From: Vicia villosa
Taxonomy: Eukaryota > Streptophyta > Magnoliopsida > Fabales > Fabaceae
Assembly: GCF_029867415.1 (NCBI RefSeq)
Contig: NC_081183.1
Location: 118,782,514 to 118,846,513 of the forward strand
Reading direction: 5' to 3'
Length of the DNA: 64,000 nucleotides
Position numbers and translations under genes: made by a program. Shown one piece after another: positions 2,137 to 46,099 of the stretch. Every line of letters starts with the position of its first letter. The first letter of the stretch is position 1. The notes under the pieces were generated by a model. That model was not told the DNA's origin. It did not search any database and saw only the letters and a program-made list of their open reading frames with translations.

Positions 2137-2280
2137 AGTCTCGTATGAAAGAAAAGAGAGCCAACGTGAGCAAGGACTACTCGCCGACGACACTCAAATG
2201 AGAAAGGATTCTACATTGATAGTTGTTGCCGGCAAGTCATCCTTGGCTCAAATCCACTCTCCCTGCCTTTTCATGCAAGA
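2137..2280 (-). ncRNA. MIR169: MIR169 precursor, copy D
   Basis: Read on the minus strand, the 5' arm contains TGAGCCAAGGATGACTTGCC followed by GG (2229-2250). This is the recognisable plant miR169 family sequence in its usual 5p position. The 3' arm, at about 2168-2187 on the plus strand, reads GGCGAGTAGTCCTTGCTCA on the minus strand and pairs with the mature segment with a few G-U pairs and mismatches, as a star strand should. Pairing continues below the duplex between the GCATGAAAAGGCAGGGAGAG side and the CTCTCTTTTCTTTCATACGA side. Known role: miR169 guides cleavage of NF-YA (CCAAT-box factor) mRNAs in drought, nutrient and nodulation responses. A TATA box lies upstream at 2366-2373. Folding was judged by eye. 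The strongest alternative is a non-expressed duplicate. Confidence 0.88.
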
Positions 2281-2365
2281 CATTAGAGCAAATCAACAAC
2301 ATCTTTGAAACTTAACCTATTATCTTCTAAACTGTAATGTGTGTCACACCCTTCATTCGGCCATG

Positions 2366-2373
2366 TATTTATA
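2366..2373 (-). promoter_or_regulatory. TATA box of MIR169 copy D
   Basis: TATAAATA on the minus strand, about 86 bp upstream of the hairpin's 5' arm. The same octamer occurs at the matching place in copies A, B and C, although the surrounding sequence has diverged. That suggests it is the pol II core promoter of the primary transcript. Confidence 0.7.
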
Positions 2374-2696
2374 AGCACAAAATTAATGTCAAAGGGTTAT
2401 AGTTTTAATTTCTTCAAAGGAAATATTCCATATTAGACATTGATCCCTTTTACCAATATATCAGTGTCCTTGATGCTTCTTATCCAAAACCGTAATTGCT
2501 GTATATATAGAATCAAATTTTTGCTACAGAAGAAAAATATAGTTGACAATTGGCTCATTTTCTTGCCAAAAATGTTTGTTGATTGATTAACATTACTTGT
2601 TGTGGGAATAGAATATAACAAGGGGAACTAAAGCAGCTAGAGGAGTGGTTACCCGTGTGATTTGGTATATATTGTCAATGTCAACAGTTCTAGATA

Positions 2697-2926
2697 TTGT
2701 GTGGTGTATTAAAACTATGGTTTGGAGATGGATGTTCATCGGGAAGATTACTTATCCAAATTGCAATTTTTATGAATTCATCAAAAATCCTTTGTTTTAT
2801 TTATATTAAGTGCGATTGGTTTGTAATTTTTCTTTTTATCGAGCTTGGCCTCGTTTCCTTTTGTAATCTGGTTGAGAACATTTAGTTCTCTTTGCAATAT
2901 ATCTGGCTTACAAAAAAAAAAAAAAA
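2697..2926 (+). mobile_element. 5'-truncated L1 LINE tail
   Basis: The sequence matches the 3' end of the full L1 at 4246-10130. It shares the C-terminal codons of the zinc-binding region (a TVW..MVWRW segment, then PNCNFYEF), the 3'UTR words TTGGTTTGTAATTTTTCTTT and GGTTGAGAAC, and a poly-A tail of about 15 bases at 2912-2926. Only the last 230 bp were inserted. No clear target duplication was seen. Confidence 0.8.
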
Positions 2927-3505
2927 CAATTTTTTCTCAAAAATATAGCTTATCAGAAGATCGTATATAATAAGATTTTGACTTAATTAATATTAATGGG
3001 TTTTGTAAGAATATGTGCTAAAATACATAGGTGTTCTTCATCATTAAATCATTATCTGTACGTTCTATGCTTGTGTACGGTTTTCCCAATGTATACATCT
3101 AGTATGGTCCGATAAAAAAAATTAATTAAGAGTTAAATATATAATACCCAATACTTTTGTAATATAGGTGAAATTTGCTTTATCCCTAGTAATAAAAATT
3201 GAATCACTTTTTTTAAATGTTTAAATCTATGTCTTTTGTCTGATAAGTTCACAAGTTACCTCCGATAATATATTTTTTTTATTTGCGCTCTAAATTCAAT
3301 GTTTAATTAGTATGCTTAGAAGAATAATCCAAAAAAAATGTTACAGTGTGTAAAACAAAAATCGCCTACATTACAGAAGTAAAGTCGTATTAAATCTAAA
3401 ATCTTAAAAGATGACATATTCTTTATGGACATCTAATATGTAGATTATAAAAAAATATATTTTAAATTGAATATTATTATTTTTAGTAAATTTTAATTAT
3501 TTCAA

Positions 3506-3723
3506 TTATTATTATTATTATTATTATTATTATGGTTAAATAAATTTTTTGTCCCTATAATATTGTATTTTAACTTTTAGTTCTTCCTGGATTTTAGCTG
3601 GTTTTGGCAACGGATTTTTTGTAAAAACCGTTGCCTAAAGTCAGGAGGGACTAAAAAAGAAAACTGTAATATTTATAGGACCAAAAACTTATTTAATCCT
3701 TATTATTATTATTATTATTATTA

Positions 3724-3791
<68 letters not shown>
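3506..3791. repeat. ATT/TTA microsatellite split by a MITE
   Basis: ATT repeats run from about 3506 to 3533 and again from 3700 to 3791, with one imperfect TTATCATTA. The two tracts were probably one array before the MITE at 3534-3699 inserted. Confidence 0.85.
3534..3699. mobile_element. Foldback MITE in the ATT microsatellite
   Basis: A 166-bp palindrome-like element. The left end GGTTAAATAAATTTTTTGTC pairs with the reverse complement of the right end (GGATTAAATAAGTTTTTGGT). The centre pairs GGCAACGG with CCGTTGCC around a short AT loop. It has no coding capacity. The family is not assigned; it is similar in style to short TIR MITEs of legumes. Confidence 0.75.
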
Positions 3792-3793
<2 letters not shown>

Positions 3794-4230
3794 AGTGTAT
3801 CTGAAGCTTTTGTTATAGCGTTTAAAGATCAGCTTAGATTAGGAGTTTACTTTTGGTTTTTCTTCTTCCTTATTTTATTTCACAGTTTTTTTTACTTTGT
3901 GGAAGGATTATTTTATCAAGATAAATTGTATTGGAATTCTTCTAATTTAGGAATTTGGTTTTCTTATATTTTGAATTGTGGTGAAAATATTTTATAAATC
4001 CTTGACGAGTCTTTGATTGTCGTTTCAGAAAAAGGGTTTGAAATTTGTAAGAGGAAAAGTCTTACTTCGATTTAATTTAACGGCATGGATGTTAGCAATC
4101 ACTCTATGCAAAATAGAAGCCACTGGCCAGGTATATGATCAAGAACCGAGATAAATTCATTTTCTATCTAGTTAAGAAGCTGGTTATTGCAAACTAAAAT
4201 GATAAATATTGTCTGCATGAAGAATATATA
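3792..4230. other. Non-coding spacer
   Basis: AT-rich DNA between the microsatellite and the L1 insertion. No gene, RNA or element end was recognised. Confidence 0.4.
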
Positions 4231-4322
4231 ACATCTAAGGTTAATAGCTTTTGAAAATTTCTCTCTCTAAAATGGCGCTCTAACCTCTCTCTAGAAGGGG
4301 GTTAGGGTTTGCAATCTAGCTG

Positions 4323-6319: not shown

Positions 6320-9300
6320 ATGATCATCGGCTCTTTGAACATAAGAGGGGGTGTCAATTCTCTTAAGAGGAAGAGAATTAGTGCTATTATTCAAAAATCT
6401 AAGGCGGATATGTTTTTGTTACAGGAAACTAAGATCACTAACATGGCGGATGGCTTGGCGAAAAGTTTTTGGAACACTCTGGAGGTTGGGTTTTCTTTTT
6501 CTAATTCTTCGGAAAGGTCGGGAGGCTTGATTACTCTATGGAAATGTAACAATGTGGAGGTTTTGTGTAATTTTAAAGGAGATGGGTACTTGGGCACTAA
6601 AGTGGAGTGGAAGAATAATATTTATTACATTGTAAACATTTATTCTTCTTGTTTATTGAGCAAGAAGAAGGAGTTGTGGAAGGAGCTTCTAGAGTTGAAA
6701 TAAATTTTCAAAGATGGTGAATGGATAATGGGAGGGGACTTTAATGCTATTGAAAATTCTATAGAGAGGAAGGGGAGGATGGTGGTGGCGAACCATTATG
6801 AAACGGAGCTTTTTTTGGAATTTATTGATAAAAGTCTTTTGGTGGATGTTCCGTGTAAAGGTAAAAAGTTTTCTTGGTTTAGTGGTGACGGCAAATCTAT
6901 GAGTTGCTTAGATCGTTTCCTTGTTTCTAGTAATATTGTCTCTAATTGGGGTGTGGTTGGCCAACTCATTAGTGATAGAGACATCTCGGACCATTGCCCG
7001 GTTTGGTTAATGATGGATAATTTGGATTGGGGACCTAAACCTTTTAGATTCAGCAATGAGTGGTTTTAGCTTAATTCTTTCCTTCCTTTTGTGGAGAAAG
7101 AATGGAAAAGTTTGAAGGTGGAAGGAAGAGGTGATTTTATTCTAAAGGAAAAGCTTCGCTTATTAAAAGATAAACTTAGAAGGTGGAACAAAGAGATCTT
7201 TGGGAAGATAGAGTTGGAGATGGAAGATGGAGTCCGGGACTTGAATATTGCCGATGAAAGGTTAGTTTCCGAAAACGTTGCTTCTTTTGATGATAATCTT
7301 GCTTTTAGGAAGGAATCTAGTGCTAAGTTTTGGAGGAATATGAGGTTAAAAGAGAATATGCTTCTTCAAAAATCTAGAGTGAAGTGGATTAAGGAGGGAG
7401 ATTCAAATAGCGGTTTTTTTCACAAGATGATGAAACAAAGGAGAAGGATAAATCATTTAGGACCCATTATTACTCCGGAAGGTGTAGCGGGTTCGGTAGA
7501 AGATGTCAAAGAGGCGGTGTTTAATTTTTTCGAGAACAAATTTATAGAAACGAAAGAGACTCGGCCGATTTTGGATGGTATCCCATTTAATTCTATCAAT
7601 GGTTTGGAAGCGACGGATCTTGAGAAGCCTTTCTTAGAAGCCGAAATTAAAGAGGCGGTGTGGGAGTGTGGCGGAGACAAAATTCCGGGTCCGGATGGCT
7701 ATTCCTTTCTTTTCATAAAGAAATGTTGGTTTTTTATTAAAGAAGATTTTATTCGCCATTTCGAGTATTTCTTTGACGGGAACTCTGTTTCGAAGGTGAT
7801 CACCTCTTCTTTTTTTACTTTGATTCCGAAGAAATCCAATCAGGTATCTTTGGGTGACTATCGACCCATTTGTTTGGTTGGTTGCATGTATAAAGTGGTT
7901 ACAAAGCTCTTGGAGGGGAGACTAAAAAAGGTGTTGTTTTCGATCATTTCTAATTGCCAAAGTGTGTTCGTTCCCGGTAGGCAATAGTTAAACGGTGTTT
8001 TGGTGGCGAATGAAGTGGTCGATTTTTCTAGAAAAGAAGGTAGTAAATGCATTCTTTTTAAAGTTGACTTTGAGAAAGTGTATGACAAAGTAAGTTGGAA
8101 TTTCTTAAGGTACATGATGAAAAGAATGGGATTTGGTCAAAGGTGGTTGAAGTGGATGGAGTTATTGGTGTTTAATAGCAACATGTCGATTCTTGTTAAT
8201 GGGAGTCCTACTAAGGATTTTATGGTTTCAAGGGGTTTGAGGCAAGGCGATCCTCTCTCTCCTTTTCTTTTTGTTTTGGTGGCTGAAGGATTATCAGGCT
8301 TGGTGACAAGATCTATTGAAGTTGGGGATTTTCAAAGGTTTGATATTAAGAGATCTTGTGGGGTGGATATTCTCCAATTTGCGGATGATACTCTTCTAGT
8401 GGGCGAAGGTAGTTGGAAGCAAATTTGGGCGATTAAGGTGGTGCTTTGTGCTTTTGAAGTGGTTTCGGGCCTCGGAATTAATTACCAAAAGAGAAAGCTA
8501 ATTGGGATTAATTCTAATGTTCATTTCTTGGAAGCGGCTTCTCATGTTCTTTCTTGCAAGTTGGAAGAGATCAATTTTTACTTTCTCGGTATTCCTATTG
8601 GCTTTAATCCAAGGAAGGAATCTACTTGGAGTCCTCTTGTGGTGAATATGAAGAATCATTTGGAGGGGTGGACTAATCGCTTTCTAAATTTGGGAGGTAG
8701 AATGACTCTTCTTAAGTCCGTTCTTAGTTGTTTATCTATCTTCACTATGTCCTTTTACAAATGCCTCCGAAAGTGGTAAAAAAGCTTAACACCATTCAGA
8801 GTAACTTTCTATGGGGGGGAGTGGAGAATAATAGGAAAATCCATTGGGTGAAATGGAGGGATGTCAATCTTTCTTTTGATAAGGGGGGTTTGGGTGTTAA
8901 AAATATTGCTTTGTTTAATTTGGCCCTTCTTAACAAATGGAGATGGAAGATTCTTCAAGGCACCGAATCACTTTGGCATAGTATTTTGAAAGCTCGTTAT
9001 GGTGACTTGTCTCATAAGATGTTGAGCGGGGATAAGGGGTCATCTCCTCCTTCTCGTTGCTCTTTTTGGTGGAGGGACCTTTTAAAAATTTCTAATGATT
9101 TTTATCCTGATCCGATTGTTGATTGTAGTAGGTTCTCCGTCAATAATGGTTTTAATACTCCTTTTTGGCATGCTAAGTGGTTGGGAGGAGTCTCCTTGAA
9201 AGTCCTTTTTCCGGGTCTTTTTGAGGCGTCTAAATTGAAGAATTTTCCGTGGCGGCAATGGGCGGTTGGGGTAATGAAGGGTAGATATGGGGTGATTTCG

Positions 9301-10019
9301 GTTTGGAGGGGATTATTCCTTCGGATAGTGTGGTGGCGTTGAGGAATCTTTTGGATGGTTCAGAAGGGCGGAATGAGGGGAGAGATGGAGTGGAGTGGTT
9401 CAACAATAAGGAGATGGATTTTTTGGTGGCTTCTTGTTATTCTTATCTTTTGAAGAGATTCACTCCCTTCGGTTCTCCTAACAAAAGTGACGAAGCTTTT
9501 GGGCTTTTGTGGAAATTGGAGGTGCCTTTCAAAATCAAAGCATTCGGATGGAGACTTTTTCACAATAGGCTTCCTATTAAGGATTTGTTGTTGCATAGAG
9601 GTATCTCTCTTTCTTTAGATAATTTATTTTGCTCTTTTTGTGGTGTCGACTTAGAAAAGTGTAGGCATACTTTTTTTGTTTGTTGGGTGGTAAAAAGGAT
9701 TTAGAATGAAATAGCTTCTTGGGTTGGTATAGGAGATAGGGTGGAGGAAGAGTGTTTACCAAGTTTTATGGAGTGGCACTCCTTATTTAAATTCAAGAAA
9801 GTTAAGAGGTGTAAATTCGGTGTGGTTTGGTTAGCGGTTACGTGGTGTCTTTGGTTAGCTAGAAACGGAGTGTGTTTCCGGAATGATGGTTGGAGCGTCA
9901 ACAATATTGTTTGGAACATAAAACTAACAGTGTGGAGATGGTCTTTTTGTGGGAATATTACTAATTCAAATTACAATTTTTACGATTTTAGTAAGGACCC
10001 ATTGTTGTTCCTTTCGTAA
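6320..10019 (+). pseudogene. L1 ORF2 (endonuclease, reverse transcriptase, zinc-binding), broken
   Basis: ORF2 supplies the enzymes for target-primed reverse transcription. Domains in order are as follows. An APE-type endonuclease lies at 6320-7069, with SLNIRGG, LLQETK, GGDFNAI and SDHCPVW motifs. The reverse transcriptase lies at about 7640-8500, with GPDGYSF, LIPKK, DYRPICLVG, KVDFEKVYDKVSW, RGLRQGDPLSPFLF and an intact FADD catalytic motif. A C-terminal zinc-binding (zf-RVT) region lies at about 9480-9990, with LLWKLEVPFKIKAFGWRLF and C-x2-C motifs. The frame is stopped at 6701, 7067 and 7986 and shifted near 8760 and 9320. A second, closely related copy is at 24172-26610. Confidence 0.92.
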
Positions 10020-10193
10020 GGGTAATTGGTTTGTAATTTTCTTTTTTATCGGGGTTTCCCGTTGTCTATTGTAATCGGGTTTGAGAACCCCTAGTTCTCC
10101 TTTATATATAATTCCTTGCTTATGAAAAAAACATGTAAGGTTAATCAAAAGCATATTTTAGATATAGATTACAAACATGTTAAGCTGAATAAT

Positions 10194-11617
10194 CACTACT
10201 AAAAAAACACGTTAAGCCTTGGACGCGAAATGCATTTAATCTCAGCTATAAAAGCGAGGTAAAGAAAGTCGTCATGAAAAATTATCAAAAATTTTTTTCG
10301 GTGTTTAGAAAATCGTGGGGTAACGTTATCTGTACATGAGTTCAAACCCCAGCATCTGACTTTAATAATTTTCAAAACTAACTCATCATAGATTGATGTT
10401 TTTTAAACTCGTTATATTATTTACACAAAATACTAATAAATAAATTGTTTACACTCACCATGTTAAGGACGGTAATCAATATCTTCAATAATCATGTCAA
10501 AATTATACTCTCGGTTTTGTCAAAAATCAAGGTAATTAAAAAATATTTTCCCCTCAATTTCAGTAGAAAACTGCGGTGAATAAGCTTTTTTTAACGTTAC
10601 ATTGTTTGCATAGAATATTAAAATACATTATTACAACAAATACAGTTTCGTCATAGTCGTTGTTGTTCCAACTTCTAAGGATTGAATGCATCCAACTTAT
10701 AAGGAGTTATTTGTTCCAAACATGGGAAAATATTTTTTCTGCACTTGATATTCAACATAGAGAACTTTTCCAAGCTTCTTTAAATTCCAAAATTTCATTA
10801 TCTTGAGCAAATGTTTTCATGACAAATGCTTTCACGAGAAAGATATATAGTGGTAAATGTAGATAGTTTGTTGTGGATTGATGACTTGAAAATATCTTGA
10901 GCATTGTTCCTCTATGAATGTAGGGTAGAGGTTAGTTATTGTGACTGTGTAACAAAACCCCTCAGTGTTTTTAAAAAATTGAAGGAAAAAGTATTTTCTT
11001 TTTTAATAAAAAAATTAAATTGAATAAGGTAACCCCTTGGTTTTAGTAAAAAACCAAGGTAATAGGGTTCAAGCAAAAAATGGTGAATGATAAAAAATTG
11101 AAAGTAACATGTCATATTTCCCTTTAACAAACACCATTTTTTTTATACAATTTATACCATTTTTAGGAATAAATTTCTCAATGTTGTTAACCTAGGAAAA
11201 TAAGTGTTGTTTTCTTTGATTGGCAACAATGGAAGGTTATTCCAAAAATATAACAACAATATCAACACCATTATGTGAGATAGATTGCAAGAGATGGAAA
11301 AAAATTTTGTTCAAGATAGAATAACATTGAAGATTTTTTATGTCTTGTAATCCACCCAAAAAGAATTATGCATACGAATGTGAGGAGGCTACATATAAGG
11401 TAAGATTAGGGTGAAATCTTTTTAACGAGTGCTTTTAAAATAAAATCTGATTATTTTATCACTCGATTATTACGTAAACTAAAGGAATAAATCATTTTGT
11501 TTACACTTATAATGAAATAAAAAATAAACTGCAATAACTTGGATTTGAAGCATATCCTGTATTGTTTGTCCCATCAATGATATTAAAAAGCGAAGAAGTA
11601 TGTTCTTTTATTTAAAG
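10194..11617. mobile_element. CACTA element, A copy, right end lost
   Basis: It begins CACTACTAAAAAAACACG and aligns along its length with the complete CACTA at 26654-28656, including the AGCGAGGTAA and CCTCGGT-type subterminal repeats. Similarity stops at about 11617, where an L1 fragment with a foldback starts. The terminal TAGTAGTG seen in the B copy is missing here. No transposase ORF is seen. Confidence 0.75.
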
Positions 11618-11935
11618 AAATAATCCCACATTAAAATTACCGGAGTTAAACAATATTTCTTTACGCATACACCATACCTGTTGGGCATTATGGTGTATGC
11701 GTAAAGAAATATTGTTGAACTCCGGTATTTTTATTGTGGGAGATGTCGTGCATAAAATTAAATTGCTCTCTTGGCTTTGGAACATTATAGGTTTCAAGTT
11801 TACCGTCAATTGTAATTTTTATTTATGGTGTCAAATTCCTTTGGAATCATCGAATTCCCCCATTTGTATTATTCATGATTGAACACCCCTTATGTTCTTA
11901 TTATTATAGAATTCCATTGCTTATAAAAAAGTCTA
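11618..11935 (+). mobile_element. L1 tail with inverted 5' end (foldback)
   Basis: The right part (about 11690-11935) is an L1 3' end. It encodes RKEILLNSG and a WNIIGFKF segment like the C-terminus of other LINE ORF2 proteins, followed by GAATTCCATTGCTTATAAAAAA. The left part (about 11627-11683) is an inverted copy of the first 57 bp of that tail. AATCCCACATT..CACCATA faces TATGGTGT..TGTGGGAGA across a 12-base loop. Known L1 'twin priming' yields such 5' inversions. It replaced the right end of the CACTA element. Confidence 0.7.
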
Positions 11936-13569
11936 AGTTTGGAATCATTCCACCTAGATATTGAGATCGAGATTTTTCTTCTTTGTCAATCGTTTTCAGT
12001 TCATAACACAATTTACACGACTTTGGTTAGATTTTAGTTTCTTGAAACCGATAAATTGTGATTCATACCTCGTGTTCTTAAACAAAACAATCAATGAAAG
12101 GAAGAATTGAACTGGAGAGCATTGTGACAAGCCTCATGAAAAAAAATCATCATGCTGCCACGTCAAGTACGCGTGATTTTCAGTATCAAATGTGTGATTC
12201 TCAATAATGAGGTATCAAGGTGGAATAGTATAATTCGTAAGTTGTGGTGGAAGCTTGTGAACCCTTATGATTCTTTCAACTTGCTGATTCTTTTGAATCA
12301 TCAAACTTAATAGCACTACTATAAAAAAGCTATTTAATAGCGTTTTTTTTTGTTTTTGATAGCGCTACTGACCAGGCCGATATTATAAATATTTCTATTT
12401 AATAGCAGTTTAAAAGCGTTATAGTAACGATAATTAATAGCGTTTTTTTAAAAGCGCTATTATAGTATCAGTATTTAATAGCATTCTTTCAAAAGCGCTA
12501 CAAAAATAGACATTTAGCGCTTTATAATTTGTCTTCTGCTTTGATTTTGATAGCACTTCCGGCCAAACTGCTATTATAAGGCACAATTTTGATAGTGCTT
12601 TTCCATAAAAGTGCTATTATAGCATGTCTCATTAATAGCACTTCCTATAAAAAGCGCTATTCTAGCACAACTGTTTTTTTTTACAAAATCATTCTTTTGG
12701 TCTATTTATATGGTATTTGCATTTTATGACATAAGAATTCATTAAAACAATGATTAATCAACTAAAATATTTGAAAATAAAATATAACCACTTATTCAAG
12801 AACAAATTTGTGAAACCATATCTACCATTGCCATATAATTAATTAATAAATATGGAAGGAACTGTATCTATGTATATAGATCAATCCACACTACATAATA
12901 GTGTTAAATGATATAACAAACCAGATTCAACATTGATCTCAATGAAATTAAGCTAAAACTTTTGCCACAAGTTGGTCCAAGTGCATCAAACTAAATTCCA
13001 AACAAAAAGTACAACATATTCTACACTAAAGAAAAAACATCTAAAAAATCAAGAAATGACAACAAAACAACATCAAGTAGTAATCCCTTCGTGAAACAAA
13101 GCACTTCCGAATCCAGACATCGAATCACTTTGCTAGCTAGGCAAAATAATTGCTTCTTGTTTTCCTGTATCATAGAAAGAATATTAATTATGTTTTGTGC
13201 AATAATCAAAAAACCAAAACCTAAATATATATATTCATATAAATAACAATATAAAGTTTAATATCAAATGTATGTATGTCATATATTACAGCCTTATCAT
13301 GAAAATATAAACTAAGTGAGGTATCAAATGTATGTATGTCATGTATTATGCCAACAATATAATTGCCCTTGTCATGCATAAAAGGAGATATAATATTTCA
13401 CTTCCTGGAATGACAGTACTAATATTAAAATTAATAAGGATAATGCAATAAATAAGTAAGTTATATTTCAACATGTTTTTAAACTGTAAATCTCACATTT
13501 GAATACAACACTCTATACTTATCTTCCGTAACATTCTGTAAATATTTTAGGAAATATTAATTGTAGGCT

Positions 13570-14640
13570 TTAAAAAACTCACCGAACACATCATCCACCA
13601 TATAGGTAGCCCAATCCTCCTTGACCTCAGTTAACTTATCGTTAGAGTAGGTACGGCATTTGTGGTCAGGAAAGTACTTCAAATATAAAAACATCAACAA
13701 TTTTATTAGAATTTAATCACATTAATTTACAAATTAATAACAACTAAAATCACGTACATTTACGGGGATCATAATTTCATTTTCCATGATGACCTCTTTC
13801 ATAAATCGCTTCACAAAATATCCACAGTCAATGCTATTAATTTGACGGGGACACTGCAAAAAAAAACATTTCATATATTACTTTTACTCTACATAGTTGT
13901 TTAAAAATAACATTAATTTGGACATACCCGAATTTTTGACCATGAAATTTTCTTTGACTTGGAGACTTTAGGCACTTTAGAATTACTATTAGCACGATAA
14001 ATTTGCAACGCACTAACAAAATGAAATTAACTTCAAATAAGTAATTATTATAACTAAGAATACTTATATAAATGTTAAACTAAAAGAGTCTATACTCACT
14101 TCTCAAACTTGGTTTTTAAATTTTGATATTTTGTTGGCTCACCATTCAACGGGTCCATGTAATATATCACCTCAGCATCGAGATTGATGACAAGTAACAC
14201 CCAATGTTTTCTGTACCCAACATTTGAATATTGCAATAAAAATTTACATTGAATATATAGTTTGTTCTCGTAAATTTAATAACATTTTGAATAGAATTCT
14301 CACCCTAGATTGCAAGGTGCAAGAATCATTTTATCCTTGAAGTGCTCCTCATCTTTCAAGAGTATTTTTGCTACAGCATTTCCTATATTATCCTACCGTG
14401 ATACATGTGGGGATATGAAGGAGAACTTATTTATTAATCCATTTGGACTAATAAACTTGTCATACAAATACCTAGAAATGAACGACAACAATTGGTATTA
14501 ATATATTTGTCAGATTAGAGAACATTTGTAATAATATAGGTACCTGGCAAATACAGTGATAGTAGAGGCACTTAACCAGTTGTGATCAAGAATCTCTTTT
14601 ATATTCTCTACACGTAGATGCTCTAAAAACTCCTCACCAA
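13570..14640 (-). pseudogene. Ulp1-like C48 cysteine protease, spliced, one stop
   Basis: Minus-strand exons can be read as a SUMO-protease-like (Ulp1, C48) domain. The exon at about 14640-14545 gives ESIFGEEFLEHLRVENIKE and LDHNWLSASTITVFAR. The exon at about 14480-14300 gives YLYDKFISPNGLINKF, an in-frame TAG (14393-14395), then FKDKMILAPCNLG. The exon at 14217-14100 gives KHWVLLVINLDAEVIYYMDP. The exon at about 14010-13930 is basic. The exon at 13847-13758 gives CPRQINSIDCGYFVKRFMKE. A last exon near 13680-13570 ends the ORF. The catalytic His (codon 14204-14206), Asp (14153-14155), Gln (13842-13844) and Cys (13824-13826) are all present. Splice sites GTATG and TTTGCAG are visible. Similar genes travel in CACTA and MULE elements. 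The single stop makes it a probable recent pseudogene. The exact 5' end is unknown. Confidence 0.8.
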
Positions 14641-14654
14641 ATATACTTTCCGAT

Positions 14655-15032
14655 TCAAACAAAACCAAACATGATTGCAAGAGAAAAAAAGCTCAAAATA
14701 AAAAAGAATTCGTAACCTACCTTCAAAGATTTCGACGAAGACTTCAACTCCGGTACGGTCTCTCGTAGCTTGATCCTCCTTCTGGTGGTGTGTGCGACTG
14801 GGTTTGACGATTGGAAAGAGTGTTTGACGGCGTGAATAGGGTTTGACAATTGGAAAGAGTGTTTGACGGTGTGAATAGGGTTCGATGGCTTGGCAGAAAA
14901 TTGAAAATCGACGTGAGAGAAGGGTTTGAAGATAAGGTTTTTGGAGCAATATGAAAAGTTTAGCGGATCGAAGAGTTTGGGGATAAGGTTTTTGGAGGCA
15001 ACATGAAAATTTCCCCCAATGTTATGCGCCAA
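14655..15032 (-). CDS. Hypothetical ORF in CACTA, possible first exon
   Basis: An ORF of 125 codons upstream of, and co-oriented with, the Ulp1-like exons. The protein is basic and Ser/Asn/His-rich, with an internal direct repeat (HTVKHSFQLSNPIH, then HAVKHSFQSSNPVA) that mirrors a DNA repeat GAAAGAGTGTTTGACGG at about 14813 and 14853. A hydrophobic stretch ends it. It may be a leader exon of the protease gene or chance coding. No family was recognised. Confidence 0.3.
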   Translation of the reverse strand: MAHNIGGNFHVASKNLIPKLFDPLNFSYCSKNLIFKPFSHVDFQFSAKPSNPIHTVKHSFQLSNPIHAVKHSFQSSNPVAHTTRRRIKLRETVPELKSSSKSLKVGYEFFFILSFFSLAIMFGFV

Positions 15033-15803
15033 AACTAAAAAGTGCCCTTTTTAATTTTTTTTATTTTATTATTAGCGTTGCATAGAAAAACGCTATTTAA
15101 TTAAAACTATTTTTTTACAAAAATAAAGTTGAAGTATTAGTAGCGTTTCATAGAAAAGCGCTATTTATTGAAATTTTTTTTTTTTACAAAAAAAGAGGTT
15201 GAAGAATATTAGTAGCGTAGAGATGTATTGATCGTAGGTTCTAAAGATTTTCTTTGTGGTAGACCCATCTTGTCGTGTATATGAGAGTTTGGAAACATAA
15301 TTAAAAGTCATGGATATGGCTAATACGCTCATGATATTTTTGAAATATGTGATTGTAGGTACAACTACTGGCAACCATTATACAACCATGACGATTTTGA
15401 TTATGACAACTTCTTCTGTCCAACAATCTCTAATGATGATATATGTCAAAGAAGCTATATCAAGCATCATCAATTAGAAGTAAGTTTCAGATGAAGACTA
15501 AATTAATAATGAATCTAGCAAAGGAACTTGATGCTTGAACACTACGAAAAAGAGGAAGCGTAAAAACTTGTAAGATAAGGTCATGCGCTTAGCGTGTGTC
15601 TGAGTGACCAGTTAAAATGTAAAAGCTCAAGAGTAAGTACTGATATACTATGGCAATCACAAACACACGTGGAAAAAATTTTAAAACCCCCTCTTTTATA
15701 AAAACTTATTGAAAATCTTTCTAGACTTGTACGGAATTGATAAAAATATATAATTGTCAAATGGGAAATTTTTTACATTGTATATTCGATTAAGTATAGG
15801 GTC

Positions 15804-15928
15804 TAATCGATTAGATCAATGTAAACAACATCTTAATCGATTAGAAATACTTTGAATCAATTAAAACATTTAACCATTGCTGTCTTTTTTAAACTCTTAA
15901 TCGATTAGATCATAGGGTTAATCGATTA
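15804..15928. repeat. Cluster of TAATCGATTA palindromes (unit A)
   Basis: The 10-bp palindrome TAATCGATTA occurs four times, at 15804, 15834, 15898 and 15919, with further half-matches (ATTCGATTAAG, GAATCAATTAAA) between. The homologous place in unit B (29706-29857) retains three perfect copies. It resembles a dispersed plant repeat or a homeodomain-type binding array. The function is unknown. Confidence 0.7.
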
Positions 15929-16272
15929 AGTCAATAAAAAGGTCCATGGATCTTTTTCTAGTTTGAGCCAAAAAATTTTTTTATATATATATATATATAT
16001 AAAAGAGGTTTCTCTTCATTCAAAAATACAATAAGTTTCTGAACGAAAATCTCTTCTTTTATTCTCTGTTGTTTTTATCTGTATTGAGCAAACATGTGTC
16101 GTTCGCAAGATATAAATTTTTCAAATAATCTCAATTTTTAAATAACACAATTTACTCCCTCCCTTTTATATTTATAGTCACTTGCTCAACGGATACCATA
16201 TTAAAAATTTGTAGGGGGAGAGAAGATTCTATTGCCTAGAATATTCTACAAAAAGAAAAGAGAGAGAATTCT

Positions 16273-16340
16273 TTTTTTTAATAAGCAATGGAATATAAGA
16301 AATCGCACTAGGGGTGCAACCCTTACAACAAGAACGCACT
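16273..16340 (-). mobile_element. Very short L1 tail (68 bp)
   Basis: The minus-strand sequence ends CATTGCTTATTAAAAAAA, like other L1 3' ends here. It is bounded by the 8-bp target duplication AGAATTCT at 16265-16272 and 16341-16348. Unit B reads straight through (GAGAGAATTCTATTTGGAG), confirming a small insertion specific to unit A. Confidence 0.8.
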
Positions 16341-16408
16341 AGAATTCTATTTAGAGAATATTATTGAATTGATAGAAACCGGTTCAATTGTTATAGGAAA
16401 CAACTTAT

Positions 16409-16687
16409 CAGGACCGGCCTAATCAATTCAGGGTCCTCTTTTAATTTAAGAAATGAACCTAAAATTTTTTTTAAAACAAAATTAACTTTAATGATTAAAA
16501 ATAATACATCTAAAATACAATTGTATATTAACCAAACAAAACACTAAAAAATTCAAAATATTATTTAAATTATAAATTTTATGTTTTTAATATTTTTTAT
16601 CTATTTTTGAAAAGAAAAATTGAACCCCTAAAATTTGTGGCTTAGCACATGCAGCATGCACTTGTGCAGCGCCGGGCGCCGGGTCTG
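16409..16687. mobile_element. hAT-like MITE (279 bp)
   Basis: The terminal repeats are CAGGACCGGCC at the left and GGCGCCGGGTCTG at the right (reverse complement CAGACCCGGCGCC). Flanks are CAACTTAT at 16401-16408 and CAACTTAC at 16688-16695, an 8-bp target duplication with one change. Unit B has the uninterrupted site (AACAGCTTACTCTA near 30240). An 8-bp duplication and CAG-type ends fit hAT elements. There is no coding capacity. Confidence 0.75.
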
Positions 16688-17030
16688 CAACTTACTCTAA
16701 CAAAAACCACCACCACTTACCAAATTACTTGTAGTCATCAAAATGTTTGTTTATAGTTTCTCACCTCAATCAAAGTTTGCAAACAATATATACACGCCTA
16801 AATGTACTATTCAAGATCCAAATCCTTGAGTTGTACGTGTTCTTATCCCACTTACATGCATTCCTCAAGCAAACATGACAATTTTTAACATATATTCAAT
16901 ATCTAATTTGAAACTTTCTGACGAATCATGATTGAAAAGAGAGTAAAAATGGGATAGGAAACCAAGAAATGAGACATTCAAGTGTAGTTGAGGTTCTTCT
17001 TTCTCTCCTATTTATTTGAAGCTCTTGAAT

Positions 17031-17168
17031 GAGTCTCATATGAGTGGAAAGAGAGCAAATATGAGCCTAGATTCCTCACCAGCAACACCCTTAGAACTTA
17101 GAACTGCAGTAGATGCCGGCAAGTCATCCTGGCTCAAATATACTCTCTCTGCCTCTTCATGCAAGACT
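17031..17168 (-). ncRNA. MIR169: MIR169 precursor, copy A
   Basis: On the minus strand the 5' arm carries TGAGCCAGGATGACTTGCCG followed by G (17116-17136). This is a miR169-type sequence with one A fewer than copy D after GAGCCA. The 3' arm (about 17060-17082) reads CTGGTGAGGAATCTAGGCTC and pairs with it with G-U pairs and small bulges. The stem extends through GCATGAAGAGGCAGAGAGAG against CTCTCTTTCCACTCATATGA. The terminal loop includes a small duplication (AGTTCTAAGTTCTAAG) not found in copies B or C. The TATA box is at 17241-17248. Known family targets are NF-YA mRNAs; whether the shortened form keeps them is inference. Confidence 0.87.
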
Positions 17169-17240
17169 ATTGAGCATTAATTCTAACTATCACATTTCAT
17201 ATTTGATTTTCTATGCTCTTGGGATTCATGTTTGTCAATG

Positions 17241-17248
17241 TATTTATA
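17241..17248 (-). promoter_or_regulatory. TATA box of MIR169 copy A
   Basis: TATAAATA on the minus strand, about 73 bp upstream of the hairpin. It sits in a block (GACATTTTTCAACTTATAAA on the minus strand) that is nearly identical in copies B and C. Confidence 0.7.
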
Positions 17249-17599
17249 AGTTGAAAAATGTCAAAGGCTTAAATTCCAACTTGCATTATTTCACCAACTG
17301 ATTCTTGATTCTCTAGAGGGAAAAATATTCATTCCCTTTTAACTTGTTGAGGTTTCATGCAACACACCAAATATGAGAATTTGACAACTCGTTTTTATCA
17401 TATTTATTATATTCCCTTCATTTTACTTTTTTAAGTCAAACTTATGATTATTTTAGTGCGTTTTGATTCAATTTTTCTTATCAAGTAGTTTTGTGATTGC
17501 AATTCATTATTTTAAAAGCGAACAAATGAGATGTTACGAGTTTAAATATGCATTTCAGCATCTAATGTTCTTGTATAGTTATCATCTGAATTACCTTAA

Positions 17600-26510: not shown

Positions 26511-26610
26511 TTAATTGGAGTGTAATCTTTCTTTTTTTTTGAGTTATCCCGTTTCTTTGTGTAATCGGGTTGGAGAAACCTTATATAATTCATTGATTAC
26601 AAAAAAAAAA
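24172..26610 (+). mobile_element. 5'-truncated L1 LINE, copy B
   Basis: It is homologous to the L1 at 4246-10130 (roughly 80% identical by eye) from the GYSFLFIK part of the RT domain to a 3' poly-A at 26601-26610. Target duplications were not found. It lies exactly at the left edge of unit B, where the other L1 sits at the edge of unit A. Confidence 0.9.
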
Positions 26611-26653
26611 GCATATTTCATATATAGATTACAAATATGTTAAGTTGAACAAT

Positions 26654-28656
26654 CACTACTACAAAAAACACATTATAACTCGGACGTAAAATACATTTAA
26701 TCTCGGCTACAAAAGCGAGGTAATAAAGAATGTCGTGAAAAATTATCACTTTATCCGTCAGTGTTTAGAAAACCGAGTTGTAAAGTTTTCAGCACATGGG
26801 TTCAAACCCCAGAATCTCTTTTTTAATCATTTTCAAAACTAGCGCATCATGTCTCTCAATTTATCAATAAAATCGAAGGGTAAGATAGATTTTTTTAACT
26901 CGTTACATTATTTATAAAGAATATTAATAAATTAATTTGTTTACAAATTATATTGTTTACCCATAATATTACATTATTTATACATAATATTAAAGTAAAA
27001 GTTAATTTGTCGGTGAAGATAAACTGCTGGATCTTCGATTCATTGAAATTTGGGGAAGATTAAATGTTGGGTGCCAAGATATTTTCAATTGCTTTTGCTT
27101 GCATTTATTTCTGATATAAACACAAAAAATGTTTGAAAAATTAATGATTTCCAGCTCAAATAAATATTTAAGAACACAAATTTTAAACCCAAATAATTTT
27201 CTGTTCTTGCAATTCATCATAGAGATTTTTTGTTGGCAAATGTTCTTGAAAACTTTAGAGTGTTGAATGTAGATATTTTCAGGCGCTTCATGATGTTTCA
27301 TTATTTTTTTTTTTGATATTCAGAATGCTTTTATAATGGAAGTTTTTTTATGTTTCACGCGGATCACTAATGGTAGTGTCTTGAGCGTTGATTTTCATGA
27401 AATGGACGAAGAAATTTGTTTAAGGACGGTGATCAATATTCACAATTATCACGCCAAAATTATACTCTCTATTTTGTCAAAAACTGAGGTAAAAAATACT
27501 TAACCCCCGATTTCAGAAGAAAACCGAAGTGAATAAATTTTTTTTTAACATCGCATTGTTTACATAGAATATTAAAATACATTATTACAACAAATGCAAT
27601 TTTATCATAGTCGTTGTTATTTCAACTTCTAAGGATTGAATACGTCCAACTTCTAAGGAGTTATTTGTTTCAGACATTGTAAAATATTTCTTTTTACACT
27701 TGCAATCCATCACATAGAACTTTTCCAAGCTTCTTTAAGTTCCAAAATTTCATTATCTTGAGAAAATGCTTTCATAAGAAAGATATATAGTGGAGGACGT
27801 AGATAGTTTATTGTGGATTGATTTCTTAGAAATATCTTGAGTGTTGTTCCTTTATGAATGTAGGGTAGATATTAATTGTTCTGGTTGTGTAACAAAACTC
27901 CTCGGTGTTTTTCAAAAACCGAGGGAAAAAGTATTTCCGTTTTTAATAGAAAAATAAAATAAAAATAAGGTAACTCCTCAGTTTTAGTAAAAATCCAAAG
28001 AAATAGGATTCAAGAAAAAAATGGTGAATGATAAAAAATTGAAAGTATCATGTCAAATTTTCATTTCAACTTTTTACCGGTCACTATTTTTTATATGCAA
28101 TTCACACTATTTTTAGCAATAAATTTTTCAATATTGTCAATCTAGGGAAATCAGTGTTGTTTTCTTTGATTGAAATCATTGGAAGATTATTCCAAAAATA
28201 TAACAACAACAACATCAACACCAATATGTGAGATATATTACAAGGATAGAAATAATATTTTGTTCAAGATAGAAGAACATTGAGGAGTTTTCTGTCTTGC
28301 AATTCATCCCAAAAGAATGATGGATACGAGTGTGGGGCAGCTACATATAAGTTATGATTAGGGTAAAATATATTTAAGAAGCGCTTTTATATGAAAATTT
28401 GATTGTTTTAGCTCTTGCTTATTGCTGAAATTGAAGGGATAGATCATTAAGTTTACACTTATAAAAAATAAAAACATAAACTGCAATAGTTGAGAGTCGA
28501 TGCATGTCCTAAATTGTCTGTCCCCACAGTTATATTAAAAACCGAAGAAATAAGTTATTTTTTAAATAAAAAACACGGCATGCCTTGGCATTATACCTCA
28601 GTTTATTTTTAGTTGAGGTGAAAGTTTTGTCATGAAATGTATTATTTGTAGTAGTG
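26654..28656. mobile_element. Non-autonomous CACTA element with intact ends
   Basis: It starts CACTACTACAAAAAACAC and ends GTAGTAGTG, flanked by the 3-bp target duplication AAT (26651-26653 and 28657-28659). Subterminal repeats of the type CTCGG..AACCGAGG are found near both ends. No transposase-like ORF occurs; the 99-codon minus-strand ORF at 27002-27301 has no recognisable domain. The A copy at 10194 shares the left end. Confidence 0.87.
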
Positions 28657-29705
28657 AATGTTTTTTGTTACTATAAATATATGCGACATAAGTCTAAGTT
28701 TGAATTCATTCCGCCTAGATATTGAGATCGACATTTCTCTTCTTTGGCAGCAGTTTTTAGTTCATAACACAATTTACACGACTTTGGTTTGATTTTAGTT
28801 TTTTAAAACCGATTAATTTTGATCCATACCTCGTGTTCTTGAACAAAAGAAACAACAAAAGGAAGAACTGAACTTTAGAGCATTGTGTCAAGCATCATGA
28901 AAAGAAAAGAATCATCATGCTGCCACATCAAGTACGCGTGATTTTCAGTATCAAAGGTGTGATTCTCAATAATGAGGTATCGAGGTGGAATAATATAATT
29001 CCCAAGCGGAGGTGGAATCTTGTGAACCCTTATGATTCATTCAACTTGCTTATTCAAGAGATAGAATTCGAATCATCAAGCTTAATAGAGATGTGTTGAT
29101 CGAAGGTTCTAAAGATATTCTTTGTTGTAGACCCATCTTGTTGTGTATATGGGAGTTTGGTAACATAATTAAAAGTCATGGATATGGATTATAGGCTCAT
29201 GATTTTGTCGATATATGTACTTGCAAGTACAACTGCTGACAACCATTAAATACTCATGATGACTTTGATGATGACAGCTTCGTATGTCGAACGACATTTG
29301 GTGAAGTCTCTAATGATCTTCTGTCCAACAATCTCTGATGATGATATTTGTTTAAGAAGCTATATTAAGCATCATCAATTAAAAGAATTAAGTTTCAGAT
29401 GGTGGTTAAATTAATAATGAATCAAGTAAGGGAACTTGAATCTTCAAAACTATGTAAGAGAGAAAGCGTGAAAACTCGTTTGGTCATATACTTAGTGTGT
29501 GTCTGAGTGATCAGTTAAAATATAAAAGTTCAATAGTAAGTCTTGATGTACTATGGCAATCACAAATACACATAGAGAAACTTTTAAAAACCTCTCTTTT
29601 CATAAAAACTTATTGAAAATATATCAAAACTTGTATGGAATTGATAGAGAAATATTTGTTAAATGGGAAGGTTTTTACACTACATGATCGATTAAGTATA
29701 GGGTC

Positions 29706-29857
29706 TAATCGATTAGATCAATGTAAACAACATCTTAATTGATTAGAAAAACTTTAATCGATTAAAACATATAACCATTGTGGGTTTTCCTTTTTTGAAT
29801 TAGGGTTCTTGTCTTTTTAAAACTCTTAATCAATTAGAACTTATGGTTAATCGATTA
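29706..29857. repeat. TAATCGATTA palindromes (unit B)
   Basis: Perfect copies lie at 29706, 29755 and 29848, with decayed ones (TAATTGATTA, TAATCAATTA) between. It is the counterpart of the 15804-15928 cluster. One site is perfect here but altered in A, and the reverse is true of others. Confidence 0.65.
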
Positions 29858-30543
29858 AGTTAATAAAAAGGCCTATGGATCTTTTTCCTTTTTGAGCCTA
29901 ATTTTTTCGTATGTAAAAGAGGTTTTTCTTCATTTCAAAATACGCCAAATCTCTAAATGGAAATCTTTTTTTTTTCTTCTTCTCTGTTGCTTTATCTTTA
30001 TTTAGCAAACATATATCGGTTGTAAAAAGGAAATTTTTAAAATAATCTAAACTTCTAAATAACAAAATTTACTCCCTCCCTTTATGTTTGTAGTTTCTTG
30101 TTCAACGGAAACCATATTAAAAATGTAGGGGGAGAGAAGATTTTATAGCCTAGAATATTGTAGAAAAAGAAAAGAGAGAGAATTCTATTTGGAGAATATT
30201 ATTGAATTGATTGAAATCGATTCAATTGTTATAGGAAACAGCTTACTCTAATGTTTGTTTATAGTTTCTCACATCATCAAAGTTTGCAAGCAATATATAC
30301 ACGCCTAAATGTACAATTCAAGATCCTAATCCTTGAGTTGTACGTGTTCTTATCCCACTTACATGCACTCCTCGAGCAAACATGATAAGTTTTAACATAT
30401 ATTCAACATCATTTTCTTATTTGAAACTTTCTGACGAATCATGATTGAAAAGAGAGTAAAAATGGGATAGGAAACCAAGAAATGAGACATACAAGTTTAG
30501 TTGAAGTTCTTCTTTCTCTCACCTTTATTTGAAGCTCTTTCAT

Positions 30544-30679
30544 GAGTCTCATATGAGTGGAAAGAGAGCAAATATGAGCCTAGATACCTCACCAGCAACA
30601 CCCTTATAAGATTCTTGCAGTAGATGCCGGCAAGTCATCCTGGCTCAAATATACTCTCTCTGCCTCTTCATGCAAGACT
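30544..30679 (-). ncRNA. MIR169: MIR169 precursor, copy B
   Basis: The minus-strand 5' arm contains the same mature sequence as copy A (TGAGCCAGGATGACTTGCCG then G, 30627-30647). The 3p side is CTGGTGAGGTATCTAGGCTC. The lower stem (GCATGAAGAGGCAGAGAGAG against CTCTCTTTCCACTCATATGA) is preserved. The terminal loop differs from A and C (CAAGAATCTTATAAGGG). Loop change with arm conservation is the usual pattern of a constrained miRNA precursor. The TATA box is at 30752-30759. It has the same family role as the other copies. Confidence 0.87.
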
Positions 30680-30751
30680 TTTGGGCATTAATTCTAACCA
30701 TCACATTTCATATTTGATTTTCTATGCTCTTGGGATTCATGTTTGTCAATG

Positions 30752-30759
30752 TATTTATA
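30752..30759 (-). promoter_or_regulatory. TATA box of MIR169 copy B
   Basis: TATAAATA on the minus strand, 73 bp upstream of the hairpin, in the same sequence context as copies A and C. Confidence 0.7.
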
Positions 30760-31750
30760 AGTTGAAAAATGTCAAAGGCTGAAATTCCAACTTGCATTAT
30801 TTCACCAACTGATTCTTGATTCTCTAGAGGGAAAAATATTCATTCCATATAACTTGGTGAGGTTTCATTCAACACACCAAATTTGAGAATTTGACAACTC
30901 GTTTTCATCCTATTTATTTTGTTCTCTTCATTTTTACTTTTTTTAAGTCAAACTTAGGATTATTTTAGTGCATGTTTTGATTTTAAAGTAGTTTAGCAGT
31001 TAAAATTAATTCTTTAAAATTGAATAAGTGGATATTTGCGAGTTTAAACTTACACTTCTACAATAATTTTTGTAAACAACTATCAACGGAATTTTCTTTC
31101 AATTTTAAAATAAAAAGAAATTTTATTTACATATTTCAATGAATTGATAACAATTATAAAAATTCACGCATATAATTATGAAGTCTAGAATTTAAACGCA
31201 AGATAGAGTTTAATCTAACAATATCAAGCATCTTTTAGAAATTTATTTTGTGATAAATTTTAAATATAAATCATCATTCCATAAATTAAATAAAAACCAG
31301 TTTTATTCAAATTTCAATTTTAAATTATAAAATAAATTTTAATTTATAATTTTTAAAATTTTTGGGTTTAATAAATATGCACTAACAGTATAAAATAGTT
31401 TTACAATGTCATTTGATAAAAAATCAACAATCTTCTATTTCATTAATTTTTTTTAAAAATAAAAGAATAATTTAATTAAATATATAGTTGTAATTAGTTG
31501 ACAGTTTAAAATATTTTACAATGCATCACCTATTTTCTCTAAATTTAATCAGATTCTAATATTATTTCATTAAGTTAGTTAAGTTAAACAGTTAATTATG
31601 CAGAGACATTAAATTATACTGACACAAATTTAAATCGGTGACATGTCATTTTATTGAGCTTTAAAGAATGAACTTCGACAATTAAATTATTAAAGGAAAA
31701 AAAAAGCCTAATATCCGATATGTATGAATGTTATTAATCTCTGACTAGAT

Positions 31751-37020: not shown

Positions 37021-37077
<57 letters not shown>

Positions 37078-38065: not shown

Positions 38066-38068
<3 letters not shown>

Positions 38069-38127: not shown

Positions 38128-38129
<2 letters not shown>

Positions 38130-43779: not shown

Positions 43780-43782
<3 letters not shown>

Positions 43783-43843
<61 letters not shown>
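43783..43843. repeat. AT microsatellite at an inversion junction
   Basis: A TA run of about 60 bp lying exactly between the plus-strand gag relic and a minus-strand gag N-terminal piece. Confidence 0.95.
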
Positions 43844-43846
<3 letters not shown>

Positions 43847-44693
43847 AAATTTATTGGTTATGAGTCAGTTTCCACACTTTACAGAACCTTTAATCCTCTT
43901 GGCCTCTACATTCAAAATCCAAAAATCAAATATATTAGTCATATCTCCGGCCGTCGGTCTCAGAGGATTGAACATTGTGCCTACTTGTTACGTGAGCAAA
44001 TTGACCATTTCATGGATACTCTCATCCATCTGTTGTCTTACAAATTTAAGGGTATTATTGGTCATAGTTTGTTGTCCCGTAGAAGAAAAGATGGTTCCTA
44101 CTGGTGGTATTGCTAAACCTTGAAAATTCACTACCGGCCCTCGTGGTAAATAAGGGTTACCAGGAGATGTGATATTCATTGTGTTATCTGTGAACGTAGA
44201 TGCACTAGGTTGAAGGCATGCCATCACTGATGTTGGAATGCCATAAGGATGTTCCTTACCATTTAGAGGCAATGATAAATTTAATGGGAAAATGGGCCTT
44301 TGTTATACTACCACACTTTGGGGTTTCCTAGGGGTAGTTGGTATACTAGACACTCGTGGCTGCGTGACTACAACCCCTGGTGGTGCTATCGGGTTAGTTA
44401 TTTGACTAATGGTGGCAAGATTTTCTCCTATCATATTCGGAGTTCCTACTGCATCTAGCGATACTACGTTCGTCTGTCCTTTTGTGTTTGGAAGGTCATT
44501 TTAGGGAGGGAGACTCTTTCTTGGTGGTGGATGTGTCATGTCTAACAGTTTTTTACTGCTCCTCAGGTGCATACATGCACAACTAACAACATTTCACTCG
44601 TGAAGGAAAAAGATTTTGTAAAAAAGACACACTTTTATGTAAAAATTCCTCTGAGAATTTGACATAAAAAGGGTCCCACTAGGCGTGCCAATT
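43844..44693 (-). pseudogene. Ty3-type gag leader and N-terminus, inverted
   Basis: On the minus strand, a primer-site-like TGGCACGCCTAGTGGGAC (44673-44690) is followed by a leader and a gag N-terminus. That includes the 94-codon ORF at 43988-44272 (GIPTSVMACLQPSASTFTDN, LKFVRQQMDESIHEMVNLL), then TMFNPLRPTAGDM towards 43850. It is the same family as the plus-strand relic to its left but in opposite orientation. Together they look like one element broken by an inversion. Confidence 0.7.
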
Positions 44694-44744
44694 TGTTTAA
44701 TGTGAATTTTGGTAAACAAGCACTAGCCTACGAAAAATGGTTGC

Positions 44745-45410
44745 TTGCAAAATCGACTAGAAAATTATAGTCCGGACATCTCTTGTGATATCCACCAGGT
44801 GTGTCTTCAAATCCATGCTCCTTGCACCGACCACATTCTTGCATTTAAATGCATCACATGTTATGTTCAGTGCATCTACAGTATGGCTTGCATCTCTATC
44901 CTTCTCTTACCGAGATGCTTGTTTCCTACATAGAAGCTTATTGGGTGGTTGTCACGACACCCGTTAATCTACTACCGATTATTGTGTTTTTTCATGGTGA
45001 TAACCTAATTTCATGGTCTTCCAAGAGACAACCCACGCTTTCTCATTTCAGTGTAGAGGGTGAATACTGGGGCGTTGCTAATGTGGTTTCAGAATCATGT
45101 TGACTCCTCAACCTTCTCTTGAAGCTTCATTTTCCCCTTTCCTTGGTACTCTGATGTCCTATGAAAATGTTAGCTCTATCTATCAATCTATCTATCCTAC
45201 AACCTTGTCTAGCATTAGCGTACTAAACATATTGAGATTGAAATTCACTTTATTTGGGAGAAGGTCGTTTGTGGTCAGGCTTGCGTTCTTCATGTTTCTT
45301 TCTGACAATAGATTGTTGTTATCTTCGCCAAAGACATCCCTAAATTTCTCTTTGATGATTTTCAGACCAATCTAAACGTCTATCGACCTCCTAGTTCGAC
45401 TGCGGGAGTC
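44745..45410 (+). pseudogene. Ty1/copia pol C-terminus (RNase H), decayed
   Basis: Plus-strand frames give LHLYPSLTEML, then GDNLISWSSKRQPTLSHFSV and GEYWGVANVVSESC. These are well-known words of the copia RNase H region. They are followed by frameshifted remains up to PPSSTAGV-like codons at about 45395. Stops and shifts rule out function. The copia 3' LTR appears to start next. Confidence 0.8.
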
Positions 45411-45520
45411 TGATAGAATCTGTAATTATGCCAAATCATGTCAACTCTAATTTATTATATGTACATTTTATCTGTAATGAAAAAACACATAGAAAACAAA
45501 TTATCATACATTTTGTCTAC
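45411..45520 (+). mobile_element. Possible copia LTR start
   Basis: TGATAGAATCTGTAATTATG starts directly after the pol stop, where a 3' LTR beginning TG is expected. Only a short piece is recognisable before unrelated AT-rich DNA. Confidence 0.4.
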
Positions 45521-45893
45521 TACCATGTAAGATAATTAGTTTTTTTATATATTTTCTCATTATTGATATAGAATATATAAATAGTACATGGGAATTGATC
45601 TGATTTGAGATAATTACATGTAAATTATAATCACAAATACAAATAAATGCAAAACAAATACATATTCTATTAGATTTGATAATCTAGAATATTCTAAAAA
45701 GAGAAAAGAAAAAATTTGTTGAGAGAATATTATTGAATTGGACAGGAAACCTCACCAGCAACAACTGCAACACGTCAGAGTATACATCAAAGAAAAGAAA
45801 AATGGATCATCATGGAAGAAACCAAGAAAAGAGACATGCAAGTTCAGTTGATGAAGTTCTTCTTTCTCTCACCTTTATTTGAAGCTCTTTTAT

Positions 45894-46024
45894 GAGTCTC
45901 ATATAAGTGGAAAGAGAGCAAATATGAGCCTAGATTCCTCACCAGCAACACCCTTAGAATTGCAGTAGATGCCGGCAAGTCATCCTGGCTCAAATCTACT
46001 CTCTCTGCCTCTTCATGCAAGACT
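45894..46024 (-). ncRNA. MIR169: MIR169 precursor, copy C
   Basis: The minus-strand 5' arm carries TGAGCCAGGATGACTTGCCG then G (45972-45992), identical to copies A and B. The 3p side is CTGGTGAGGAATCTAGGCTC and the lower stem is the same. The loop is the shortest of the group (CAATTCTAAGGG). The TATA box is at 46092-46099. The precursor arms are nearly unchanged although the flanks have diverged, which suggests constraint or a recent duplication. Confidence 0.87.
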
Positions 46025-46091
46025 CTTGAGCATATAACAATCATATTTAGTATTTGATTTTCTATGCTTTTGGGATTCATGTTTGTCAATG

Positions 46092-46099
46092 TATTTATA
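46092..46099 (-). promoter_or_regulatory. TATA box of MIR169 copy C
   Basis: TATAAATA on the minus strand, 68 bp upstream of the hairpin, in the same context as copies A and B. Confidence 0.7.

Follow-up and report, generated by a model that had tools for sequence, protein, structure and literature searches.

Tandem MIR169 hairpins in Vicia villosa carry a canonical mature sequence and a form one A shorter

A 64,000-nucleotide stretch of the Vicia villosa genome (NC_081183.1; C4:118782514-118846513 in the 2.03-Gb assembly, hereafter the window) holds four hairpins of the MIR169 family on its minus strand, which belong to an array of at least eight copies on chromosome C4. One of them, h1, carries the canonical miR169 mature sequence, GAGCCAAGGATGACTTGCCGG, and the other three (h2 to h4) carry a form that is one A shorter, TGAGCCAGGATGACTTGCCGG / GAGCCAGGATGACTTGCCGG, referred to below as the one-A form; copies of the two kinds make up class I and class II, respectively. 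Very probably, this is a tandem MIR169 array in which canonical class I and one-A class II genes act on NF-YA genes in the manner proposed below. MIR169 clusters are a type of locus already known from legumes and other plants, and the one-A majority is the point of interest here. The array provides a natural series of two isoforms that are one base apart and have possible targets in common, and it makes testable the idea that a microRNA that pairs with a bulge is kept as a weaker version of a strong one. Such a locus is invisible to annotation based on open reading frames (ORFs).

Four MIR169 hairpins and two mature forms

An earlier note, made from the letters of the window, placed four miR169-type hairpins on the minus strand at 2229, 17116, 30627 and 45972, each with a plausible star strand and a TATAAATA (TATA) box. 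Covariance models bear this out. Four matches lie above the Rfam gathering threshold, all on the minus strand, and none other is listed in the window: h1 matches MIR169_2 (RF00645) at an E value of 4.1e-15, and h2 to h4 match MIR169_6 (RF04244) at E values of 2.1e-17 to 3.4e-18 and scores of 83.5-86.3 bits (Table 1). Relative to these two families, loop length and sequence vary, and no other difference was seen. On the minus strand, the last bases of the miR169 cores fall exactly at the four positions named by the note, and successive cores are 14,887, 13,511 and 15,345 bases apart, in agreement with its 14.9, 13.5 and 15.3 kb. The four intervals that it had put forward for folding gave stable hairpins, with none of 200 dinucleotide shuffles as good for any of them. 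Chance hairpins were rejected on account of the Rfam scores and of folds better than every shuffle. In each hairpin, 2-3 bases of the mature 5p arm are unpaired, and a duplex of the mature sequence with a star strand of 20-21 nt can be drawn from the fold, the 2-nt 3' overhang of the star strands being imposed in the drawing. The TATAAATA box is also present in all four copies, 108-124 bases upstream of the mature sequence, and CTTATAAATACAT is unchanged at the same aligned place in a four-way alignment; taken by itself the box counts for little, since TATAAATA turns up 14 times on one strand of the AT-rich window and 18 times on the other. Covariance models, folds and mature sequences together make the MIR169 identity of the window hairpins secure. 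On the plus strand these hairpins also have Rfam matches, of 34-37 bits, which mirror their stems and fall short of the threshold; other weak matches in the window (mir-17, mir-1, MIR859 and others) likewise fall short and were set aside.

The canonical core, AGCCAAGGATGACTTGCC, is present in h1, and h2 to h4 have this core minus one A, matching the MIR169_6 consensus, which itself carries the one-A core in the alignment. In chickpea, miR169_10 is exactly the one-A 21-mer, is reported with a star strand, and is marked as found in Medicago (PMC4190074, Table 2); at the level of the mature sequence, it is letter-identical to h2 to h4, a match that suggests a legume origin for the DNA. Because the one-A form occurs both in the MIR169_6 consensus and as chickpea miR169_10, it is not damage unique to this plant. 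The same table lists a chickpea miR169_9, without a star, that has the mature letters of h1 and a listed start coordinate that differs by 50 kb from that of miR169_10 (PMC4190074). For one 86-mer of h1 (2253-2168), GC count and fold energy agree with those given for the miR169_9 precursor, a match obtained after many 86-mers had been tried, and no 76-mer in the window matched the figures for the miR169_10 precursor within the limits tried. Literature text searches for the one-A sequence, with supplements outside their reach, returned PMC4190074 alone. The miR169 family is also large in Medicago, where miRBase has 18 MIR169 genes and two legume-specific isoforms are said to diverge from the conserved mature sequence (PMC4212123).

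Copies across the genome and constraint on the mature sequence

A genome search with a 305-base query from h2, in which only the best candidates were scored, gave at least 27 matching places: at least eight each on C4 and C1145, at least six on C1378, and at least five on C355. All 27 listed places are on the minus strand of their contig. The C4 copies stretch over 240 kb, from 118619843 to 118859462, and thus extend the array on both sides of the four in the window. The note's four-gene tandem cluster therefore stands as to the shared strand and relationship by duplication and falls short as to number. With at least eight same-strand copies and homologous flanks, the C4 locus is a tandem cluster of homologous microRNA genes. 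A survey of Arabidopsis, rice and poplar described homologous miR169 clusters by a rule of less than 10 kb (PMC2812943), which the window spacings (13.5-15.3 kb) exceed; neighbours on C4 are 7 to 116 kb apart, and only one such spacing, among the matches listed, is below 10 kb. A closer parallel is the tandem cluster of soybean, with MIR169n, -d and -e on chromosome 9 and MIR169l and -c on chromosome 15 (PMC3481472). Both systems have tandem genes of the MIR169 family, NF-YA targets, and MIR169-like copies that come and go; unlike in soybean, each copy found here lies on one contig strand and the larger class is one-A. Tandem arrays of microRNA genes in general are also reported in chickpea (PMC4203128).

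The mature core is retained in 25 of the 27 listed places, with 14 one-A copies and 11 of class I, of which eight are fully canonical and three have one substitution. In a class I copy at C355:87412 (L039), the substitution falls midway along the mature sequence (GAGCCAAGGATGGCTTGCCGG). The Rfam gathering score is reached by 23 of the 27. Upstream DNA was examined for 24 of the mature-bearing copies, and 21 of these have TATAAATA there. In a tree of the 25 copies, the split between the two classes has a support of 100/100; this tree is midpoint-rooted, and its root gives no order of age for the classes. Judging by the canonical miR169 letters in general, the A was probably lost in the class II lineage.

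The C4 array may be represented again, as haplotigs, by the copies on C1378, C355 and C1145; the true number would then be about eight, with copies gained and lost from one haplotype to another. We consider the chances of this about even; it concerns the copy count alone and is compatible with a tandem array of two classes. Nearest to h2 in sequence are a copy on C1378 and one on C355, with 98.4% and 97.5% identity over about 755 bases; in the tree they group with it (98/96). From low to high coordinate, C4 has three class I copies and then five of class II, and C355 and C1145 similarly have class I followed by class II. However, the order on C1378 is different (II, II, II, I, I, II), and for the other contig copies the likeness to the best C4 match ranges from 79 to 96%, with flanks that are often non-collinear.

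Both mature sequences look to be under constraint. The mean pairwise difference within class II is 0.000 in the mature sequence (a value that is partly circular, since classes were assigned by mature sequence), as against 0.03-0.13 in the remaining hairpin, 0.10-0.26 upstream of the TATA box, and up to 0.52 downstream; the stretch from -80 to -61, between the TATA box and the hairpin, is also low (0.02). Within class I, the mature sequence differs by 0.009 and the loop by 0.16. On trees built from the surroundings, 11 class II copies had no mature change where 7-9 were expected (P 8e-4 to 1e-4), and nine class I copies had two where 12-14 were expected. The test omitted three of the 14 class II copies, whose broken flanks gave long branches and whose mature cores are unchanged too, and two of the 11 in class I, of which one has no 3' arm and the other was only partly covered by the stretch analysed. 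Neither the best candidates of the homology search nor a pattern search allowing up to three mismatches contained a class II copy in which the mature core was mismatched.

NF-YA sites and the proposed action of the two classes

In nodule development, miR169 acts on NF-YA/HAP2 genes (PMC3481472, PMC4212123), and it has been tied to drought, cold and salt responses (PMC3384596). A PF02045 search of the genome gave 19 matches at 11 NF-YA places, with genes found by domain only and 3' flanks taken as genomic stretches with introns unmodelled; two of the places, on C611 and C1151, hardly differ and could represent a single gene in two haplotypes. Under a scripted penalty scheme (a plant-target rule), nine of the 11 flanks contain a canonical miR169 site with a penalty of 1.5-5.5, five of them with the UGAG start also paired; no such site was found in the other two (L052 and L059). 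In two near-identical flanks (L055 and L056), the first site is followed 27 bases downstream by another, imperfect miR169-like one. When one target base is left unpaired after microRNA position 6, the one-A form attains the canonical score in the same nine flanks, the bulge itself being unpenalised in this scoring; the bulged pairing costs 4.5-4.7 kcal/mol. The assignment to the MIR169 family made by the note is supported, with the qualification that three of its four copies encode a one-base-shorter form whose pairing with NF-YA is bulged.

We propose that one MIR169 gene with a TATA promoter was duplicated locally and gave rise to two lineages. Class I would carry the canonical miR169, and the mature sequence of class II would be shorter by one A. 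Both would then have multiplied, class II to the greater extent, and every copy is most likely transcribed by RNA polymerase II from a promoter of its own. Separate transcripts are favoured because of the 13-15 kb spacing and the TATA box before each window copy, and a polycistronic transcript was rejected as first choice on the same grounds. From general knowledge of plant microRNAs, such transcripts would be cut by DCL1 to yield a 21-nt 5p microRNA, which would be loaded into AGO1 and direct cleavage of NF-YA mRNAs. Class I would pair with the NF-YA sites without a gap; class II would need the one-base target bulge and is therefore probably a weaker regulator of the same genes. A bulge opposite the 5' region is tolerated in the pairing of miR398 with BCBP, where its removal raised slicing and which the authors called "rather unique" (PMC4005643). 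By analogy with that case, the one-A pairing may be weaker rather than dead. A more specific and rather unlikely version holds that class II is a "detuned" miR169, in which a conserved one-base loss near the seed region leaves every NF-YA pairing bulged, and which would serve as a weakened regulator, or as a competitor for AGO1 that sets the strength of canonical miR169, with its dosage given by copy number.

Several observations weigh against an array of two classes acting on NF-YA. Without a gap, the one-A form scores nothing better than 8.5 at any of the 11 NF-YA flanks. The star-side stretch of class I, at 0.26 (including one copy without a 3' arm), is more variable than its loop. Covariation offers no independent support, with doubly changed pairs at 0 of 49 in class II and 1 of 51 in class I; stem changes are nearly all one-sided and mostly preserve the pair (e.g. 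G-C to G-U). Moreover, four of the 27 listed copies are truncated and score below the Rfam threshold, two of these being without the mature core.

The loss of ungapped pairing, while the mature sequence stays fixed, would suit a class II that has switched to targets of its own, complementary to the shortened sequence, and that no longer serves NF-YA. Such a switch is nonetheless improbable, as the complementary 19-mer of the one-A form has 14 exact matches in the genome, every one in a class II gene, and its inexact matches (none with one mismatch, two with two, and 41 with three) number 43 against 39 for a reversed-pattern control. A dedicated near-perfect target was rejected, since no 19-mer with 0-1 mismatches lies outside the array; bulged or looser sites were outside this search. 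It is likewise improbable that the hairpins are decaying, silent MIR169 relics in repeat-rich DNA under silencing by 24-nt small interfering RNAs: remnants of long interspersed nuclear elements (LINEs) and a long terminal repeat (LTR) element surround them, two of the 27 listed copies are without the mature sequence and two more without a 3' arm, and soybean clusters include "MIR169-like" genes without an accepted mature RNA (PMC3481472), but the mature stretches show stronger conservation than the hairpin flanks or the DNA upstream, each of the four hairpins in the window is intact, and chickpea is reported to have the same one-A 21-mer together with its star (PMC4190074).

Duplication history and surroundings

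The window copies share unequal lengths of sequence. About 800 bases are common to h2 and h3 at 90%, with further collinear pieces at 70-86% that run through LINE sequence; h4 resembles both over about 510 bases at 87-88%, and h1 resembles the others over just 170-190 bases at 74-75%. The units therefore differ in age or extent, and by sequence the promoter-hairpin piece is the part common to all of them.

Table 1. Positions of MIR169 features and duplicated segments in the window
Feature	Positions	Strand	Basis
MIR169 hairpin h1, class I canonical	2137..2280	-	Rfam MIR169_2 at 2155-2260, 62.0 bits; -67.3 kcal/mol, z -8.1
h1 predicted mature 5p arm UGAGCCAAGGAUGACUUGCCG	2230..2250	-	core sequence and fold
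h1 predicted star strand	2165..2184	-	drawn from fold
TATAAATA box of h1	2366..2373	-	alignment
MIR169 hairpin h2, class II one-A	17031..17168	-	Rfam MIR169_6 at 17052-17146, 83.5 bits; -59.2 kcal/mol, z -5.4
h2 predicted mature 5p arm UGAGCCAGGAUGACUUGCCGG	17116..17136	-	core sequence and fold
h2 predicted star strand	17060..17080	-	drawn from fold
TATAAATA box of h2	17241..17248	-	alignment
MIR169 hairpin h3, class II	30544..30679	-	Rfam MIR169_6 at 30565-30657, 86.3 bits; -57.9 kcal/mol, z -5.6
h3 predicted mature 5p arm, one-A form	30627..30647	-	core sequence and fold
h3 predicted star strand	30573..30593	-	drawn from fold
TATAAATA box of h3	30752..30759	-	alignment
MIR169 hairpin h4, class II	45894..46024	-	Rfam MIR169_6 at 45915-46002, 85.4 bits; -61.1 kcal/mol, z -6.6
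h4 predicted mature 5p arm, one-A form	45972..45992	-	core sequence and fold
h4 predicted star strand	45923..45943	-	drawn from fold
TATAAATA box of h4	46092..46099	-	alignment
Larger duplicated segment, left copy, with h2 and LINE	7697..17546		collinear pieces vs 24172-31048 at 70-90%
Larger duplicated segment, right copy, with h3 and LINE	24172..31048		collinear with 7697-17546

LINE remnants with reverse transcriptase or zf-RVT domains are located at 7-10 kb, 24-26.5 kb and 31.8-32.9 kb of the window. The first two occupy matching places in the duplicated segments, yet are 70-73% alike as compared with 78-90% for their flanks. About 350 bases upstream of the TATA box of h2 is a 2.93-kb insertion (17600-20530; 17.5% GC), the site of which is empty in related copies on C1378 and C355. 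It lies between an A and a T, and its minus strand runs from TC to CTAG with a hairpin before the CTAG, ends that we take to be Helitron-like.

The earlier note had also found almost no host genes in the window. In an unspliced survey, the window has 55 ORFs of at least 95 aa; a Pfam scan of 17 of the 55 gave reverse-transcriptase families or nothing, in keeping with that remark, and a host gene may still be present. The MIR169 genes may be expressed and may constitute what the note called the likely functional content of the locus. A scan that used the bacterial code gave no tRNA gene in the window. At 52012-60133 is an LTR element, Gypsy-type by eye, with a single open frame of 1391 aa and AAGGG on both flanks. 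Besides length differences, its two LTRs show 11 substitutions, each of them a transition, over 1764 aligned sites, which marks the element as a young insertion. Finally, a CT-rich simple repeat at 60666-61103 gives rise to a serine-leucine reading frame that is probably meaningless.

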